Shown: piece after piece, positions 1,871 to 14,151 of the stretch
Layout of the letters: every line of letters starts with the position of its first letter
Numbering within the stretch: the stretch's first letter is position 1
Source of the DNA: Daphnia pulex
Taxonomy: Eukaryota; Arthropoda; Branchiopoda; Diplostraca; Daphniidae
NCBI RefSeq assembly: GCF_021134715.1
Contig: NC_060019.1
Location: 8,060,001-8,124,000, forward strand
Direction of reading: 5' to 3'
DNA length: 64,000 bases
Made by a program: the position numbers and the translations under genes
The notes under the pieces: generated by a model
What the model saw: the letters and a program-made list of their open reading frames with translations, nothing else
Told to the model about the DNA's origin: nothing
Databases searched by the model: none

Positions 1871-4800
1871 ATGGATCCGTTCGTCATTTTACCACAAGAA
1901 AAAGCTCGTTATGTAGAACAATTCAACTCATTGAAACCGGCTGGTGGATTTGTTAGCGGCGACCAAGCCAAAGGGTTTCTTTTGCAATCTCAACTCCCAC
2001 CTGTAATCCTGGGACATATTTGGTACAATGTTAAAGACATTGATGATAAAAACCAACAACTAATCCATTTGTTTTCATGTTCAGGGAACTTGCTGACATA
2101 AATTCTGATGGCAAGCTTGATTTCACTGAATTTAGCATTGCTTGCAAGTTGATAAATGCTAAACTTCGAGGATTTGATATTCCAAAAGTCTTGCCACCCA
2201 ATTTGAAAAATTCTGCTTCTGCTGGTGTTGGTTAGTGGAACATCCCTACTCTCTATTTGTATTTACCTGGGTATTTCATTCTGATTTTTTTTTTGTTTTC
2301 TTTATTGTAAGCTTCATCTGCTGGAACTCCTCCTTCATCTATGATGGGTGCTCCACTAGTCCCACTTGGAATGGTTTCAACTGGAGCAGTCCCTCCCATG
2401 ACCATGCATTCAGCTGCACCAGTTCTGGCTGCAGGGCCCCAGCCAACCAATCAACCTTTGGTTCAGCCTATGATGCAGCCATTGATGCAACCAATGATGC
2501 AGCCAGTAATGCAGCCAGTAATGCAGCCCATGATGCAGAATATGATGCAGCCAACGATGCAGCCCGCTATGCAGCCCTCTATGCAACCCACGATGCAACC
2601 CACGATGCAGCCCATGATGCAGCCCATGATGCAGCCTATGATGCAGCCTATGATGCAACCCATGGTGCAGCCAATAATATCATCAAATCTTCCACTACTT
2701 ATGCAAGGCGCAGGGTCTCCTGTTGGTTTACCTTTAATGGCAACCAATATGCAAAGTCCAACTGGAATGATTTCACCTCCTTCGGCTAATGCCGCTGCTG
2801 TTATTGGATCAGGATTTCCCACTTCGGCAGCAAGTTTCGACGGTTCGAAGCCAAGTACTCCTGACTCGTCAAAAACAGTGGTTCGGGCTCCATCAGTCGC
2901 TAGCAGAGAGTCGTAAGATCAATTCGACAACTATTTCAGTAATTTCACTTTAAATTTTTATTTTTATCTGAAAAATCCGAAGGTCAACTGAATGGGCAGT
3001 TCCGCATTCCTCAAAGTTGAAGTATGCCCAAGTTTTTAATAGTCATGATCGAGGAAAAACGGGCTTCTTGACAGGTGTTCAAGCTCGTGGAATTCTAGTT
3101 CAAACTCAGCTGCCACAGCATTTATTGGCCCGCATCTGGTAATAATACTTTTGATATGTTACAACTTGCAATCACAAATTTGACGCGCTTTCAAACAGGG
3201 GATTGTCGGACATTGATATGGATGGGCGCTTGTCGTGCGACGAGTTCGTATTAGCTATGCATTTATGCGACGTTGTACGAGCTGGAGATAAATTGCCAGA
3301 TACATTACCGCAAGAACTCGTGCCGCCAACGTTTCGTCGTCCTAGTTTAGTGAATGCGGCATCCGGTTCGCTAACCAGTCCAAAAGGACCATCAACACCC
3401 GAGTCCAATGTACAAGGTTTGATCGCCACGTCACCACCACCTACCGACGACATGAAAATGATGTCTCCAGTTTCTTTCGAAGACAAGCGAAAAGAGAATT
3501 TCGATAAAGGTGTGTTTTTCCATTAACTTTGGCACGTAGCAAGACTTAAAAATTGTGGAATATCTGGTTGGTTTTAGGGCAAGCTGAGCTTGATAAAAGA
3601 AGAAAAGCTTTGGCTGAACAGCAGCGTCGTGAGCAAGAAGAAAGAGAGAGAAAGGAGCGCGAAGAATATGAAAGAAAAGAGAAGTTGCGGCTGGAACAAG
3701 AACGCCGCCAACAAGCCGAACTGGAGAAGAAGTTGGCCAAACAACGCGAAATAGAAATGGTGAGTTGGTTGTTTTTCAAAGAAGAAAAAAGCATTTGATT
3801 TGATTGGTCATCACCGACTGCTGTAACAGGAAAAAGAAGAGCAGCGTCGTAAAATGTTGGAGCAGCGCGAAGCCGCAAGAAAAGAGATGGAAAGGCAAAG
3901 GCAGTTGGAGTGGCAGAAACAGAGACTTCAAGAACTTCTACAGCAGAGGCAAAAAGAGCAGGAAAAAGTGGCGCTACTTCGGGCGAACCACCAACGTCTT
4001 CAGACGGAACTCTCTGTTCTGGTAATAACTGGCCTTCTGATTGTTTTCTTTTGGCTTTAACTCAAATACATTTATTTTTTTCAGGATGACAGAGTAATGG
4101 AATTATCTTCCAAGATAATTGAAACTCGAACAGGCGTTGCCGAGACTAAGAATACAATCGACGGGATGCGTACTACTCGTGACACACAAATGGCTCAACT
4201 TTCGACACTAAAGACGCAGCTTCGTGAGCAAAATCAACGTCTTCTTACTGTTAGCCAAGAGAAAGTAAGGTTGGAAGCTAAAAATCGAATGAATGCAGCC
4301 ACTACACCTAACGCCAGTACGAACAAGCATTGCCATTATAATTTTTCTCTCTTAAAAGTTTAGTTACTAAGCGTTTACCTTTGGTTTATGCTAGATGAAG
4401 CTGAAACGATACAGAATACTACTGCTCGTCAAATTGCGTTGAATCAGACAAAAGAGAAGCTCGATGCATTAACAGAAGAGGTTTGTTTCTGGGAAAATAA
4501 TTTTCAAAACGATCAAAATAACAATGTTTCACGTTGTTCGATTATACAGCTGAATAGTAAGCTTGAAGATTCTGAAAATAACAACGCCCAATTAAGCAGT
4601 TTGAGAACGGAGATGTCCATGCTAGCTCGTACCTGCCAAGAAACTCACAAGTCATATCTTAAGAAGCGAGAGGAAGTTCTACTATTGCGTGCCACGGGTG
4701 GCAAGCAACAGTCTTGGAGTAACGATTCCTGGTCTGATTCAACTAATAGTTGGCCAGTTAGTGCAGGAACAACTCCTGCCATAGTAGACAACAGTTCCAA

Positions 4801-7800
4801 GTCAGGTCTCACTCGTTATCGGGCATTGTATGAGTTCGTGGCCCGTAATGGAGACGAAATCTCTTTCCAACCGGGCGATATAATCATGGTAATCGTTCAA
4901 TTTCATTCATTTTCTTCGTTTAACTAAGAGTTTTATCAAAATCAGGTAACGGAGTCACTTTCAAACGAACCTGGTTGGCTGAGCGGTGAAGTGCGAGGCC
5001 ATGTCGGTTGGTTCCCAGAGGCCTATGTGGAGAAAATGGATCAAGCAGGATGGTCAGATGCTGGTGGTACTGTAGCTGTCAGTAGTATTGATAGTCCCAT
5101 GGCTGGAGCAAAACGACATCCCCTGGAAGGTATTCAGGAACTGCCAGAAAATGTCAGTGACAACGGATCCATCGCGGATGCGGGTGCAGCTGTATCTTTG
5201 GCATTAGAGGCGGCTCATTCCGCTTTTATGCCAGTTACAACTAAAGTATCGGAAGAATCATCTTCTCCCATCCTTGGCCAAGTATGCGATTGTTCATTTT
5301 TTGGTTTTTTGCAAACGAATACTAATGCAGTTTGAGAAACTCTTTAGGGAGAAATCGTCGATAATTTGAAAGCGGAAGCCATTTACGTTTGGCAAGGCAA
5401 AAAGGACAACCATCTCTCCTTCAACAAAGGAGACGTTATTCTTGTTCGCGAACAGCAAGACCTTTGGTGGTTTGGCCAGTGTAATGACCGAAGTGGTTGG
5501 TTCCCCAAGTCATTTGTTTCACTCTTCCACACCGATACTGCCCCACAATCTCCAAAGGCAGTTATTTCTGCGCAAAATAGCAAAGGTATAGTTGGAAAAT
5601 TTCAAATGATTGAAATTTAAATAATTAACCATATTTGTAATGCATTATTCAGGTTTAGAAGAAAATTACTACATTGCTATGTACCCATACGAATCGAACG
5701 AGCCTGGAGATTTATCTTTCGTGGCTGGCGAAATGGTGACCATCATTAAAAAGGACGGAGACTGGTGGACTGGAACTATTGGAGCTCGAACCGGTGTGTT
5801 CCCTTCCAACTACGTGCAAAAAGCTGAGCTTCAATATGAAGCGGCAGCTGATTCCGAAGTTGAAGCTGCCTCAGCCGCTGCTGATGCTGCCGCGGCCGCT
5901 GCTGTTGCCAAAACAGTTGCTCCGGCAGTGAAGACAACGACTCAAGCAGATTCCAAGCGGCCTAATACTGCTCCAATCGATAGCGAATTTGAGGTATTTC
6001 ATTATTGATATTTGTACCTTTAGCCACGTAAAGTATCAAACTGCTAGCGCTAATGCTCCCTTCGACCCATCTCCCCTGCAAATGTCAATGTGCATATGTC
6101 AAGAAGTCGTTTTTTGTGTGTTGTTTCCATGTATTCCCGGATGAAATAGTCGTCTGTTAGTGGAATTCCTCGAGCCGCTTCCGCAGCTTCTAGCGGTGCA
6201 CCTTCACCTTCTAATATGGTATTCTTTCATCAAGCCAATTTACCAACCCATATCTCTTTAATGAGATTTCTTGCCATGAATGTATTTACTGATAAGTTAC
6301 TACTTCAACAGGGACGGGGAAGCAAAAAGCCTGAAATTGCCACAGTAATAGCCCCTTACTCGGCAACTAGTAGTGAGCAGCTATCGCTACAACGAGGACA
6401 ACTTATCATGATCCGGAAAAAATCTGCTTCTGGTTGGTGGGAAGGTGAACTTCAGGTACTACAATGTTATTTCTGAATGTCAACGCGGCTTACGCTTAAC
6501 TCATTAAATCGTCATCCTAGGCAAAAGGTCGAAAACGTCAGTTAGGATGGTTCCCAGCGTCGTACGTTAAAGTATTGAGTAGTTCGGGAGGCAGTAGCCG
6601 CACTACACCTGTGCCCGCCGAAATGGAGGATGAAATGCCGCAAATCCCTCCTGCCGCTCCAACTGAAACTGAAATTAGCGCAGCGTTTGAAGTCAATAAT
6701 GGTTCTGCGTTAGGTACAACCTCGTGCAACAACTATAGATAACATCCCATTTGTATTAATATTTCTTTTTCTCGCATTGCAGATCAAGTAGTAGCTCTGT
6801 TTCCATATACTGCCCAAAACGAAGATGAACTGAGCTTCCTTCAAGGCGATGTCCTGATTATAATTGATCGTGAAGACCCGGCTTGGTGGCGTGGGGAATT
6901 AAAGGGCCAGGTATTATTTACAGAAAGTTGCATGGACAAATTTAGCCTTTTCATCATATATGTTTTATCGCAACAGACCGGACTCTTCCCGTCTAACTAT
7001 GTGGAAGTCATGGGTAGTTTGGCTGCCTCAGCAGCTCTTGGAGCAGCAGCTAGTTCTGCTAGTTCCAACATCACTTCCACCTCTACTTCTCAGTGTAAGT
7101 GAGAGCTTCAGAGCTCGGACGCTTCAATTCTATTCCTTTCTATAGTGGGAAACTTGTTCTTCCATTTTCTCATTACTAGTTGTCCTTTTTTGTCCTTGAT
7201 GCTTTCATATCACCTCTCTTGTTATCTGTCTATTCCTGAGACTATGGGTAGAGCTTTCACAGGAACGGCAAATCAATTCACCCTTCTTTTCTCTTCTCTA
7301 CACTGAAACATTTAAACATTGCATTGATGGATAATGTTACTCTATTTTATGGTCGTTTTTGTTTCTCTTGATTTCATTAATTTTCTAATGAAATTTTCAT
7401 CTTTTACTTACATTCTTGCCTTTTCTTTCTTTATTTATTGTTTTGTTGTCGTTTACTTTATACAAAACTTTACTTTTTGTGGTGTGGGCGGCTTTTTAAG
7501 TAGAGTGTATTTGTCCTTATTGTAGGAAAGAGAAAGGACTGACGCGATGAGCCATCCATCCGGGGGGAAAGGGCAGCCGCACACCACGCCGTGCTTCCGT
7601 GTTAAAGGAAACTTAGGAAAGAAAATCAGCCAGAAACGCTTCTGTTTTTTTTTCCCCCTTTTTCTAAATTCTGTTTCTTTCTCAATTAATTTCTTACCAC
7701 TTAATCAACATCAAACTTCAGTTTTGTAGGTGTGCACTCCTTAAAACTAGTTCTGACGACGTGCCTTTCTTTTTTCCCCCTCTTCAATAAGTCTTTGAGT

Positions 7801-10800
7801 CCATTTCACAATTCATTCAGTTCTCGTCGATGCAGTCTGCCCTCATGGACTATATTCAATTTCTTGAGTTGCGTTTCGACTTTCTGATTTTTAAGTTTGA
7901 CTCGGCTTTGAATGGCACGGTGTGGTAGCGAGTCAATATTCCTTTTGTCGTCGTAAGAAACCCTCGTGATGTTACATCTTACCTGGGATCATGGATTCCA
8001 TGCTAGCGATTCTTACTAGCGTCTTGTACTCATCCTCCGATTGATGTGCACTTTAGGTTCGTTGTTTTTCTACACTGCAGAAGGAAAAAGAGATAGCTCT
8101 GTACAGCATTTTGCTTGCTCCTTCCTTATTTCCGACTTGTGTCGAATTATCATTAGTAGTAGCTTGTCTGTCCTTTTTTTTTTGGCTAGTATCTGTCATA
8201 CTCATCCGTAACCCATATAAAATCGCCGCACACTCTACGTGTGCATCTTTACTCTTATTCTTGTAACTTGAATCCATTCGATGCTGCTTTATGGCCATCG
8301 AGCGATTCAGCAAGAATAAGCTGTTTGAGCGAATCATCGTTCATCGTCTTCTTAGTGACCCGAAAAAGCATAAGAGCAAGCATTATTTCCCACAGTCTCC
8401 TAGTCTCTCTGTGCTAAAAAGACATAATCGATCGTCAGTTGCACTGAGCCGAGGAACGACGTTTCTCGCGCCTTAGTTTTGTTGTGTTTTCGATAGAGAG
8501 AGAGCGTCTAGTGTCGTTGTTACCTTTAATCTCCTTTCTCGGTAGTTGGACTACGCAACAGAATCTCTTTTTAAAATTAGTTTATTTCACTCGTTTGTGT
8601 CACCTTTATTTTCCGTTTAAAGTAATTTGAATACTCGTCGGTGGTTTGTGTCATCTATTTCCCCCCCTGATCGCTGGGTGTCCTCCGTTTCCAGTGCTCT
8701 TTTGGATTTTCATAATACTTTAAAAAAGTCTTAGAAAACGATTAGCTTTTCATCTGATCCGTGTGTGTTTTACTTGTTCATCATTGCAGTGCAGTTTTCC
8801 TTACTGTTAGTCTGTAATGAACATCTGGCAAGGTCGAATGTTTTTCTCTTTACTTATTATCATTCTTCGCTATGGATTCCAGTAGCTGAAATACATCGTT
8901 TGTCTTTGTGAAACACGAAACAGTTTTCTACGGATACATTTCTTGGTACCTTATACAACAGTTCTTGTGCTGTTTTGATCACCACACTTGTTTTTAGACA
9001 CACATTCTTTTAAATAGTGCACTCAACGCAACTTCCGATGAATGTCCTTCTTATGTCGATACAAGATTATCTAATATGTCAGAAAATAGCTCGATTTTGT
9101 TTGTATGGTCGAGATTATTTCTGAGCTGCTGCTGCTTCATCTTAGGGGCGACAATGAGGAAGGCCGAAACTGCAGACCTTTCCAGTCTTTCTCCTACTGA
9201 GCAAAAGCGACAGATTGTCATTCAAGAACTAATGAACACAGAGGAAAACTATATGGAGGACATGTCAATCGTCAATGAAGTAATGCACTTTCCTTCAAAG
9301 TCCCAATTTGTTTTGCTAATTCATTCTCTTGTTTTATTAGGTGTTCCAAAAACCGATGGTAGAATCGGGTGTCGTCAAGTTGGAAGACGTTGAAACAATT
9401 TTCGTTAACTGGAAGGATATTATCGCTTGTAATAATACTTTCTTAAGGTATAGTATTAAGCAAATGTGTCTCACAAAGTCACAATAATTTTAATCAACTC
9501 ATTGAGATGGAAATATTTTGTGTAGGGCACTTCGTATCAGGAAGAAAATGAGTCCTGGCGGAATAGTTCAAGCCGTCGGTGATATTCTGGTCGATTGTGT
9601 AAGTGTCAAACGCTTTAAATAGTCTTCATTTTATGCTGTACCATCTCATTTAGATTTTTTGTATTTATGATTTTCTAAACTTCGGACCCGCATGATCATT
9701 CGAAAGCTTCCGCACATGTCGCCTTACATTCGTTTCTGCAGTAGGCAGCTTAACGCTGCCGCTCTAATTCAGCGACGCCACGAAAGTGTTCCAGAATTTC
9801 GCGCTCTATTGAAAAAATGCCAACTGCATCCAAAAGTGAAAGGGATGCCGTTAACATCGTTTTTGCTAAAGCCCATGCAGAGGATTACCAAATATCCCCT
9901 GTTGATCAAAAAGGTAGACTTTGGTTTCTTCATCACTAAATTTCATCATTTGAATCACATTTTGGCTAATTTCAATTTGCGATAGATTTTAGAATCGACA
10001 GATGAAAGTCATCCTGATAGATTGTTGTTGGATGAAGCTCTTGTAAAGGCCGAAGAACTTTGTAATCAGGTATTAAACATTATTTAGTGCTGGCTAGGTA
10101 AATAACTTATGATCCCGGAAGTTAAATTCAAATTTTGCTTTCACTATTAGGTAAACGAAGGCGTAAGGGAGCAAGAAAATTCAGATCGACTGGAATGGTT
10201 ACAGCGAAGGGTTCAAATTGAAGGGTTAGACGAACAGCTTGTTTTTAACTCCATTACAAACATGCTGGGTCCTCGCAAACTCATCCATTTTGGTCCTTTA
10301 AAAAAAGTAAGGCATTGAAACGCATCTCATAGATTTTGTACTTTTATGAAAAATGATTTTCTCATTGAAACTAATTCAGATCAAAAGCAACAAGGAACTG
10401 CTGGCCTTCGTGTTCAATGATTTTCTAATGTTCACTACCGTCAACAAACCTTTAGCATCCATCAATCTTCAGTTTCTTTTTGATAAGAAATCGAGTGTGG
10501 CGTTGAAGATGTACAGAAAGGTTAGCAAATCTTTTCTTTCGTCAAAGATAATGAAATTCATTTTCTTTCTGTTTTGTCATGAGTAGCCTATATTTCTCAG
10601 AGAAATGACAGTGGTGCCAGGGGAAAACCATCCCGCCGATGGTGGTAATGAAAATGACACAGTGCCGACGCGCTTCACCATTCAAGACACGAATTGTAAG
10701 TTGTTGCTGACGTCCACCAGTTCGGCCGAACGGATTCTGTGGTTGCGGAAACTAGAGGAAGCACGAAAACACTGCTTGCTGACGGAGCGAGCTGTCCTAC

Positions 10801-12168
10801 AACGCCAAAGATCAAGTAGTCAAAGTTTTCTGTTTTTAATTAATTTTTGGGTTTCAATACCGCCTAAGATATACTGGTGCTTAATGTTTAATTATAACTG
10901 TCGCGCTTGCTTATTGCACAAGTGCATTAGTATGTCTGACAAAATCTATAAGATTTAATATGATAATCAAATAGTTAAAAATTTTAAATGGACATTGCCG
11001 CGTTATGCGTGGCCAATTCGCTCGTCTAACTCAAAATCCTTTAGAACAAAATGAAGGCAATGTTTGCGGACGATTGCTGGTTTTGGTCATGGAAGCTGAA
11101 AATCTACAGGCCAGTTCGGAAACGGGTAAGATGTACATTGAATTGAGAATAGTGGACTTCTGGATACGCATGCTCGGACGCACACAAACTTCACTACGAA
11201 AAGCTTTCCCCGCTTCTCTATCGTTTATTTGAACCTATACTAACGATTCAATCTTCAATTGCACATATTTATTTGGCTAATAGGCTTTGATTGAATTACG
11301 ATTCTCCTTAGTTACCATCGTTTTTCGGCAAAGTATTTTGTTGCTCTTATCTTTATCCTTCTTCCTTACTATAATGAATGCTAGTTTGGTGTTGTAACGA
11401 AACTCCTTTCATAATAATCTAACACGCATGATACTATTGATGATTTCTTGGCTTTCTCTGCCGTTTTCTCTTCACTTGCACACAGTAAGGCAAAGGCCCC
11501 CAGTAGGCAAGTTGCGAGTCGTCGTCGCCGAAGGCCTCGCTCTTACTTCACGGGGTAACTTAAAAGGTACAACCGTTTCTATGAATGATGTGCTTTCTGA
11601 TGTAGCACCATTAAATTCACATTTGAATGGCGTACCTGTTTTCTCATTTGAATTGGAACCACCTGCTCAGCACAACTAACTCACGCTTTCTCTGACTTGA
11701 AAAACTGTTTTGTCACAAATGGATGTTTGCCTCGACGTGGCATTGAAATTAAATTTCTACAGGAAAAAGCGACACTTTCTGTGAAGTCTATCTTGGATCG
11801 CAAGAACATCGAACCAAAGTGGTGCCTAAATCTCTCAACCCCAAGTGGAATGCGTCGATGCAGTTTTTAGTGAAAGACCTTCAGCAGGATGTCCTTTGTG
11901 TCACCGTGTTAGACCGCGATTACTTCTCACCAAACGGTATGCTAAAATATAATCATGCGTCTATAATCTAATATCTCCAAAATAACTATTCTGTTTCACG
12001 CATTTAACTGGGACAGAATTTCTGGGACGAACCGAGATTCGCATTGCTGATGTGCTGCAGGATTCAAAAATATATCGCGGCCCGCTCATCAAGCGGCTGC
12101 CTTTGTATGAGGTGGAATCGGGAGAAATCGTCCTCAAACTCGACCTTCAACTATTTAACCGCCGTTGA
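1871..12168 (+). CDS. ITSN: Intersectin, long form (endocytic scaffold and Cdc42 GEF)
   Basis: Scaffold of clathrin endocytosis and synaptic vesicle recycling; the C-terminal DH-PH unit of the family activates Cdc42. Exons: 1871-2022, 2085-2230, 2312-2912, 2983-3138, 3199-3509, 3578-3759, 3830-4021, 4085-4316, 4395-4480, 4550-4888, 4946-5281, 5348-5585, 5653-5993, 6150-6218, 6312-6455, 6521-6713, 6783-6910, 6977-7094, 9146-9279, 9341-9447, 9526-9598, 9707-9913, 9986-10069, 10151-10306, 10380-10520, 10587-10815, one of 11045-11125 or 11486-11566, 11763-11936, 12017-12168. All phases agree, giving 1,833 residues. Order: EH1 ([13 protein letters not shown]), a Met-Gln-Pro repeat, EH2 ([13 protein letters not shown]), an E/R/Q-rich coiled coil, five SH3 domains (ALYEF, AIYVW, AMYPY, VIAPY, ALFPY), DH ([15 protein letters not shown]), PH, C2. 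The upstream GTG in the same frame is not needed; the ATG at 1871 has a good context (AACATGG). AATAAA lies at 12487. Confidence 0.93.
2470..2673 (+). repeat. 12-base coding minisatellite, 17 units of xMQP, in intersectin
   Basis: Seventeen back-to-back 12-base units of the form NNN-ATG-CAG-CCN encode xMQP, where x is M, L, V, T, A, S or T. One unit ends in Asn instead of Pro and the last reads MVQP. The array sits between EH1 and EH2, where vertebrate intersectins have a proline/glutamine-rich linker. Because the unit is a multiple of three and has no stop in the other frames, several long false reading frames appear over it on both strands. Copy number is likely to vary between individuals. 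Confidence 0.9.
7095..9145 (+). other. Large intersectin intron between SH3E and DH; possible short-isoform 3' end
   Basis: This 2,051-base intron is far longer than its neighbours (mostly 60-80 bases) and falls exactly where the vertebrate short and long intersectins part. If the donor at 7095 is not used, the frame reads two more residues (Cys-Lys) and stops at TGA 7100-7102, giving a 1,323-residue EH-EH-coiled coil-5xSH3 protein. The intron is T-rich with several pyrimidine runs and no protein of recognisable family. I found no AATAAA in it by eye, so a short transcript with this tail is inferred from position only. Confidence 0.5.
11045..11125 (+). other. Alternative C2 exon A of intersectin
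   Basis: An 81-base exon with acceptor cctttag and donor ACGG|gtaag. It enters in phase 1 and leaves in phase 1. It encodes [20 protein letters not shown] and then LQASSET, the linker and first beta strand of the C2 domain (vertebrate equivalent: the GRLMV strand). Exon B at 11486-11566 has the same length, phase and structural role, so one or the other is presumably chosen. Confidence 0.75.
11486..11566 (+). other. Alternative C2 exon B of intersectin
   Basis: An 81-base exon with acceptor cacacag and donor AAAAG|gtaca, phase 1 in and out, encoding [20 protein letters not shown] and then [20 protein letters not shown] aligns with [13 protein letters not shown] of exon A, and both run into the shared [14 protein letters not shown] of the next exon at 11763. 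Using both exons together also keeps the frame but would duplicate a beta strand. Confidence 0.75.
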
Positions 12169-14151
12169 TCGTAGTCTTTCAATATTAGTGATGCATTTTC
12201 TCATCGATTTACATTTAATCTGTGTATAACTGCCAAGACAAAATGAATTTTCATAATCCTGTATATAACTGTATGTTTTCAGTCTATTGGTTATTGGTTT
12301 TTGTTGTCTGTTTTAGTCTTCGAACGTATAAATGTAGGAAAACCGTTACTCCCTACGTGGTCGAAACAAAAGCAGTGGGTTGGAGACTGGGAGGCTTTCA
12401 ACGAAGGCTTGAGTTAATTGGCGACAACGCCAAGGTTTCGCGTGTCATTTATAAATAGTAGTAGCCTTCCCCGATTGGTAAGTTCAAATAAAATTAATTA
12501 CCGTACACGGAATGTCGATACCGAAAAAAGATCGCAACTTTTTTTTATTGAAGCCACTTAGATTTCTTATGGCCTTTGCCATGTAAACGGAAAAAACTAC
12601 AAAACGCATGCGTGCCAGATTTCTGGAAGTCAGATTTTCGCGATCTAAAAAAGCCCTATATCTGTGAACTCCACGAAATATGGGGAAAAAATGAAAGCTT
12701 TTTTATTAAAACCTAAATTTTGCCAAAATCGTAAAGTTTCCTGAACTAGACTTCGCGTTATTTTTCAAATTTCAGTGATGTTTCGATATTTCTCAAGGAC
12801 ACATCAAATCGAACATAAATTTGATGAGGATCACGAAATGTAGGTTCATTTTTGCGTCATAGTAAGATTTACCAAGCTCGGAACTAAATTAGAAACCGAA
12901 AATAATAAAATGGCTATATTGGCACCCGGAATCCGGGATTTTTTCCTCTGTTGACAATTGTCAGGAATCTAAATTTTCAAATAAAATTGCCGCAATCAAA
13001 GTCTTTGCAGAATTTCAGCTCTAGGAAATCTGCGAAATAGAAATTATCTTTCCAACCCCCAAAACGGACAATTCCCCGAATAACTCCCGTCAAATATGCT
13101 AGAATTCACAAGTTTGAAAAAACAAACCATATCCGAGTCCATAGTTATTTACGAGTATTATAGCGGTATTAGTGAAAAGGACGATAAATAAACAAAACTT
13201 TCAGCGAATTATCAATGCTGGCCGGTCGGATTTGAATAGTCAGAATCATAAAGTATTAGGGCCTATATAATGCATGATTGCATTTGCCACATGCAATTGA
13301 AAAGTGAAACAACTTCAACATGATATCACTTAAAACGGGCACACTTAAATATTACTACTCAACAAAAACACCAGAGATATTTAACAATATTGTCTTGTCC
13401 TCTTCAGCTGATGTCAGGCAGCAAACACTGAGCAAACATAAGCACATAACAGCAACACCAAACTGCTTGCTTGAATACCACGTACCTGGAATAATCACTG
13501 AAAGAAAATTAATAAATTATCATGCACAAGTTAGTCAGCAGGTGAAAAGCAAGCAAACAGGAAAAGAGCTGAACAGAATTACTTCAATAAGTCGTTAGAA
13601 TATACTAAACCAAAAGTGTGTAAATTAAGTTCAGGAATCAGAGCGAATGCGGAGTATTGTAACAAAAAATAACTTTTTTAAGGTAGACGAATGAAGCAAT
13701 AAGGATACCCTCAAAAGCTAAAACATTCTAGAGTTTCCTGAAGACAAATAAAATTATAATTTACCTCTGTTCCAGGAGTCTTCTCATAGTAATGGATGTC
13801 GATTCTAAATTAGAAGTAACCAGACGTGCAGATATTCCAACTTAAAGATGTCGAAACATTAGGAACAACTTCACCTACTTCTGATTTGATAATGTGCGCC
13901 GAAATTTGTTGTTTGTGATGGATTCGGCTTGCCATATGACGCGCAGACGAACTCAGTTTAGGAACAATAACGTTGGAAACTTTCCAACGGAAAGAAAGAA
14001 TTAAATCTGTTTTTCTATGTCTCAAACCAGTAAACAAGAAGTCTTTGAAAAATTACAAATCCAAAAAAGAAAAAGAATAAGGGTAAAAAAAAATTAACCA
14101 CATATTTAAACACCATATTCTGGAGGAAACAGAGGTTGATGCGGGTTGATG
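12169..14151. other. Intersectin 3' UTR and gene-poor AT-rich stretch
   Basis: The intersectin 3' UTR probably ends soon after AATAAA at 12487-12492. From about 12.5 to 14.1 kb I see AT-rich sequence with only short frames. The longest is a 92-codon frame at 13320-13598 (+) rich in Lys, Thr and Ile, which matches no family I know. A minus-strand frame at 13810-14037 could be an exon of the SENP-like gene but has no recognisable domain. Confidence 0.5.

Follow-up and report, generated by a model that had tools for sequence, protein, structure and literature searches.

Candidate alternative exons for the first C2 strand of an intersectin long-form gene in Daphnia pulex

Does the intersectin gene of Daphnia pulex carry two interchangeable exons for the beginning of its C2 domain? 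The question arises from a stretch of 64,000 nucleotides of the D. pulex genome, hereafter the window, in which an earlier note had pointed to two exons of exactly 81 bases that were said to share their phases, to encode aligned versions of the first C2 beta strand and to splice to the same next exon. The note had seen in this the hallmark of a mutually exclusive pair that arose by tandem duplication. We refer to the two exons as A and B. Judging from the genomic sequence, we give slightly better than even odds (roughly 0.52) to the reading that A and B alternate as the exon for one C2 piece of intersectin-L, with normally one of them joined between the last PH exon and the common C2 exon that begins at 11763.

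The intersectin gene was assembled by hand from open frames, and the final version is without an internal stop. Three introns were re-placed or added in order to obtain an open frame, so the openness of the model is partly by construction. Each isoform has 29 coding exons, with the ATG at 1871 and a stop codon that ends at 12169. The protein is 1833 aa long with either A or B, 1860 aa long with both and 1806 aa long with neither, and all of these versions are open. Pfam detects, in order, two EH domains, five SH3 domains (in stretches of three and two), RhoGEF, PH_13 and C2, which is the ordered set of two EH, five SH3, DH, PH and C2 that marks the long form. The DH-PH-C2 end matches the intersectin 2 structure 3JZY (E 1e-147). 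By its Pfam domain set and its match to 3JZY, the predicted product of the locus is a full intersectin long form (ITSN-L). One review ascribes a short-form layout to invertebrate ITSN (PMC3753573). Another review tabulates a long form for Nasonia, Acyrthosiphon and Apis and for none of the tabulated flies, mosquitoes and nematodes; its main text makes no mention of Daphnia (PMC3645719).

Two other traits of the gene were observed in passing. Between the two EH domains, at about 2455-2670, lies a long run of QPMM-type four-residue repeats, which Pfam reports as a PT disordered repeat. The intron of 2051 nt that precedes the DH exon (7095-9145) opens with an in-frame read-through stop (...TSTSQCK followed by the stop, frame open to 7099), a layout that we take to be that of the short/long intersectin switch of vertebrates. 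Neither AATAAA nor ATTAAA was found on the + strand within this intron. The features that bear on the exon pair are collected in the table.

Table. Positions in the window of the intersectin coding region, of exons A and B with their neighbors, and of the inverted pairs that link the outer introns (a slash in the donor sequence marks the exon end)
Feature	Position	Strand	Description
Intersectin long-form coding region	1871..12169	+	Hand-built model; Pfam; 3JZY match
Last PH exon	10587..10815	+	Common upstream partner; donor CAA/GTAGTC
Intron before A	10816..11044	+	229 nt
Exon A	11045..11125	+	81 nt; phase 1/1; encodes the canonical beta-1 and loop 1 of C2; charge -2
Intron between A and B	11126..11485	+	360 nt
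Exon B	11486..11566	+	Candidate alternative C2 beta-1 and loop 1; 81 nt; phase 1/1; charge +5
Exon B, 69-nt form	11486..11554	+	Uses a weaker in-frame donor; loop 1 shorter by four codons
Intron after B	11567..11762	+	196 nt
Common downstream C2 exon	11763..11936	+	GKSDTFCEV...; alone 60.7 bits in C2 score
Last C2 exon and stop	12017..12169	+	
Inverted pair	10869-10881/11604-11616		Intron before A / intron after B
Inverted pair	10932-10944/11708-11720		Intron before A / intron after B
Inverted pair	10852-10861/11739-11748		Intron before A / intron after B

Exons A and B are each preceded by AG and followed by GT, and each takes over phase 1 from the exon ending at 10815 and passes it on to 11763. 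The coordinates and phases given by the earlier note proved right, both exons are stop-free, and their peptides align as versions of the first C2 beta strand in the way that it had described. Joining of either exon to the common next exon is predicted from the compatible phase and open frame, and we infer that both are used in splicing. The two beta-1 strands lie one residue out of register within their exons. The length of exactly 81 bases depends, in the case of B, on the sites chosen, since B also has the in-frame donor of its 69-nt form (score 2.0, compared with 7.5 for the donor of the 81-nt form) and inner AGs that are in frame, such as the one at 11503. By eye, the donors of A and B are ordinary GT sites; they beat 24/26 and 19/26 of the leave-one-out donor scores of the gene, respectively. 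The acceptors of A and B beat only 5/26 and 3/26 of the gene's acceptors, as scored with a small matrix. At position 11485 the acceptor of B overlaps a donor-like site (ACA/GTAAGG), the score of which (4.9) is within the donor range of the gene. Binding of U1 at this site could compete with the use of exon B.

The introns around the pair stand out by their length. The other 26 introns of the model have a median of 69.5 nt, with 24/26 no longer than 108 nt and the shortest at 57 nt. Those of 229, 360 and 196 nt are among the five longest of 29, and only the 2051-nt intron is longer; the corresponding chance is 0.003, for a cut that was picked after the introns had been seen. The long introns are not proof of B by themselves, because A would, in the absence of B, be followed by an intron of 637 nt, which is likewise long. 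GC content is 0.556 in exon B and 0.37 and 0.39 in the adjoining introns.

Each exon was then judged by how well it completes the C2 domain. The Pfam C2 score is 74.6 bits with neither exon, 91.2 with A, 84.5 with B and 82.6 with the 69-nt form of B, and it is 86.3 when A and B are joined, in which case the strand of B is the one used. Alignment to human ITSN2 (3JZY) gives 132.5 bits with A and 120.3 bits with B. In this stretch A aligns to ITSN2 without gaps, and the alignment of B requires the insertion of a single residue in loop 1. By these comparisons A is clearly the canonical exon. As in the C2-recoding alternative exons of invertebrates, one and the same C2 domain is completed by either exon, with the qualification that the background control for B was only moderate.

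That control consisted of all 1098 AG...GT pieces, in phase, free of stops and 60-105 nt long, that both strands of 12301-64000 offer, each of which was spliced in silico at the position of A/B. With the ITSN2 query, the gain in C2 score was at least that of A in 0/1098 pieces and at least that of B in 26/1098. With a C2 profile of 51 sequences built from the D. pulex genome, the corresponding counts were 0/1098 and 13/1098. When the residues of each exon were shuffled 2000 times, none of the shuffles scored as high as A and 23 scored as high as B. Similarity to A equal to that of B occurred in 18/1098 background pieces, by local and global alignment alike. Four top background pieces were also run through Pfam in a longer upstream context and reached 85.4, 78.1, 79.6 and 77.8 bits, compared with 83.7 for B and 77.7 when the exon is skipped; one of the four (85.4) thus beat B.

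A motif for the beta-1 strand was defined by the eight identities that human ITSN2 and exon A share over 13 residues, a length taken from the peptide quoted in the earlier note, and independently of the residues of B. At least six of the eight were matched at 3 of the 66,438 stop-free positions in the six-frame window, namely in A (8), in B (6) and at 843 (6). The last of these, at 843-881 on the + strand (GRLRLLVLQAPNL), lies upstream of the gene, and its 6/8 match to the C2 beta-1 13-mer is probably due to chance. The log-odds of codon use are 16.5 for A and 11.8 for B, values reached by 0.1% and 3%, respectively, of 912 overlapping stop-free non-coding windows; the median over 65 coding windows, which come from the training set, is 14.0. 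No single test on exon B is strong, and the background and shuffle tests alone do not carry it. Taken together, the codon use, the good donor, the beta-1 motif in frame and the long introns around the pair suggest that B is probably a real exon.

Whether the two exons are mutually exclusive tandem duplicates is a separate matter. The description of WebScipio (PMC3228551) asks for exons that differ in length by no more than 20 aa, that have compatible splice sites, the same reading frame and no stop, and that reach a global BLOSUM62 score of at least 15% of the self score. A and B agree in length (81 and 81 nt) and in splice sites and frame (GT-AG, phase 1/1, open). Their relative similarity is 0.029 with the 81-nt B and 0.05 with the 69-nt B, compared with the 0.15 required, and we therefore do not class them as a tandem duplicate of the WebScipio type. 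Candidates as similar to A were present in 18/118 background chunks of 866 nt when measured against the 81-nt B and in 10/118 when measured against the 69-nt B. In register, 21/81 bases of A and B are identical, and the likeness is restricted to the 13-residue motif; on this base identity we reject a recent duplication. Moreover, all four A/B splice combinations are in frame, and since this includes both the joining of A to B and the skipping of both, the reading frame enforces no exclusion. In view of the base identity, the similarity score and the open combinations, it is not established that A and B are a mutually exclusive pair born of tandem duplication.

In a search for a third copy between 10816 and 11762, 16 stop-free candidates (30-300 nt) were scored, and the best 15 were versions of A or B, except for 11671-11736. 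This candidate lacks the beta-1 motif; with the ITSN2 query its gain is 4.4 bits, compared with 4.9 for B. Under the WebScipio rule there was one candidate before A (-0.295), and there were 19 after A, the best 8 of the 19 all being versions of B. A DNA search of the D. pulex genome with 11045-11566, in which common words were skipped, matched the query itself and nothing else. A search for relatives of the downstream C2 exon gave 8 pattern matches in viral contigs and 80 in genome contigs, with none confirmed in either set and no animal relatives.

RNA pairing of the docking/selector kind, which the earlier note had proposed to look for, received no support from whole-intron comparisons. Intron-intron pairing was no better than in shuffled sequences (20/100, 100/100 and 43/100 shuffles were at least as stable), in a duplex test that joins whole introns and that a single short element could escape. 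The fold of the whole region was likewise unremarkable compared with shuffles (z +0.44; 15/20 shuffles equaled or exceeded its stability), and no Rfam family passed its cut-off on the region. Repeats in 10816-11762 are short and comprise six direct families and seven inverted pairs. Three of the inverted pairs (10-13 nt, 85-90%) link the two outer introns, that before A and that after B (see the table). With no safeguard in the frame, and with pairing and folding that do not go beyond shuffles, any exclusivity of A and B must, if it is real, come from trans-acting factors or from short pairing that is invisible in one species.

Three other explanations have to be weighed. One holds that A and B arose by tandem duplication in the recent past and are strictly exclusive, kept so by frame or by docking/selector RNA pairing. 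The equal lengths and phases of the exons and the three short inverted pairs would fit it, whereas the few identical bases, the relative score of 0.03-0.05, the four open combinations and the unexceptional whole-intron pairing and folding do not; with "recent" and "by frame" already contradicted, we consider it very improbable. Another explanation dispenses with exclusion and makes B (or A) a cassette exon, with both exons sometimes or always joined, so that the linker between PH and C2 would be longer by 27 aa and B would form beta-1. The joined form is in frame and earns its C2 score through the strand of B, and the intron between A and B is far longer than the shortest of the gene, so no steric block between the two exons is expected. 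In such a protein, however, A would carry a beta-1 motif without a place in the fold, and the C2 domain scores higher with A only; we regard joint use as improbable.

It may also be that only A is real and that B is an exon-like part of a 637-nt intron, cryptic or seldom used, its likeness to beta-1 being due to chance or left over from a decayed old copy. The homology signal of B is indeed moderate and that of A far stronger, as the two background counts indicate, a stretch such as 11671-11736 gains nearly as much, and the similarity of A and B is below the published cut-off and is equaled in a part of the 866-nt chunks. Set against this are codon use, GC content, donor, phases, the motif in frame and the long introns, weak signs that all point towards B. 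We find it rather unlikely on these grounds that B is no exon, and we retain the reading in which A and B are alternative exons of intersectin-L.

If A and B are alternative exons, the choice between them would be either/or and regulated, and the region exchanged would extend from the linker that follows PH through strand beta-1 to loop 1. In beta-1, both A and B retain the alternating core residues (L-x-V-x-V), so the C2 fold should survive the exchange. A would give the orthologous, slightly acidic form, and B a basic form in which loop 1 is longer by one residue. The net charge of the peptide is -2 for A and +5 for B, and that of the matching human ITSN2 stretch is +3, which is closer to B. 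The exchange would shift the surface near the lipid/Ca2+ loops by about +7 charges, and this may alter how the Cdc42-GEF end binds membranes or partners. In comparison with synaptotagmin, neither A nor B supplies an aspartate at what we take to be the usual first Ca2+ position of loop 1; the shared exon keeps the aspartate at the second (GKSD). B would favor acidic membrane or partner surfaces and would have less need for Ca2+. Given the charges of -2 and +5 and the lack of the first Ca2+ aspartate in both exons, the likeliest effect of the choice between A and B is an electrostatic one.

A more far-reaching hypothesis is that the pair forms an old, conserved switch of C2 beta-1/loop 1 in crustacean intersectin-L, which takes a 28-residue surface from -2 to +5 and so provides two GEF proteins that differ in membrane or Ca2+ responsiveness where endocytosis takes place. 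We put this forward tentatively and think it doubtful. To our knowledge, little is understood of what the C2 domain does in intersectin. It may be key in the coupling of exo- and endocytosis, as one review proposes (PMC3753573). If the switch is true, protein versions that differ only in beta-1/loop 1 would be a ready-made test of the contribution of this surface to Cdc42 activation and vesicle recycling.

Splicing has been said to act on C2 domains in several other proteins. In dysferlin C2A, work by Fuson et al. in 2014 reportedly describes an alternative exon that replaces the start of the domain and alters Ca2+-dependent lipid binding, which is like the ITSN pair; it is said to be an alternative first exon, unlike the internal pair of ITSN. 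Piccolo C2A, in a 2004 study by Garcia et al., is likewise said to be retuned by splicing, as proposed here for ITSN, reportedly through a short optional insert, unlike the swap of beta-1 in ITSN. In invertebrates, mutually exclusive exon use is described as having arisen on several occasions, altering C2 domains in Syt1, Syt34 and Esyt2 (PMC2823689), and a true switch would add intersectin to these published C2 domains retuned by exon swapping. In arthropod Esyt2, the same account assigns the mutually exclusive exons to the first C2 domain, and the legend of its exon alignment names phase 0 and +2 introns (PMC2823689). What these exons share with the ITSN pair is the recoding of one portion of a C2 domain by alternative exons in arthropods.

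An Esyt2-like gene of the D. pulex genome, named from the SMP match that adjoins its C2 exons, allows the comparison to be made within one species. Its alternative C2 exon pair is located at L027 1934-2022 and 2494-2591 (G000 C10 near 14.56 Mb), with introns of about 265 nt before and about 471 nt between the exons. At the best of six boundary choices, the exons are 89 and 98 nt long, phase 0 in and 2 out, with a similarity of 0.226/0.198; the other boundary choices gave 0.01-0.20. Joining or skipping both exons breaks the frame, since their lengths leave a remainder of 2 at every boundary choice. The Esyt2-like pair is thus enforced by frame, whereas the ITSN pair is frame-neutral and more diverged. 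The two also differ in the part recoded, which is that with the FDRD/WDYD loop in the Esyt2-like gene and beta-1/loop 1 in ITSN. Elsewhere in the same genome, at G000 C5 303776-326284, we observed three C2-bearing frames with identical scores, spaced about 11.1 kb apart, which suggests a recent tandem gene array.

Vertebrate ITSN1 and ITSN2, which belong to the same family as the D. pulex gene, are described as having a short/long switch and variants in EH, SH3 and DH, and no C2 variant is named for them there (PMC3645719). Among the titles and abstracts listed in our literature search, none reports a C2 exon pair in ITSN. The novelty that the earlier note had claimed for the pair accordingly holds for ITSN as far as these sources go, and does not extend to the principle, as exclusive exons that alter C2 domains were already published for invertebrate Syt1, Syt34 and Esyt2 (PMC2823689). 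If B is used, the D. pulex gene would have alternative C2-recoding exons of a sort known from other invertebrate genes and, as far as we found, new for ITSN.
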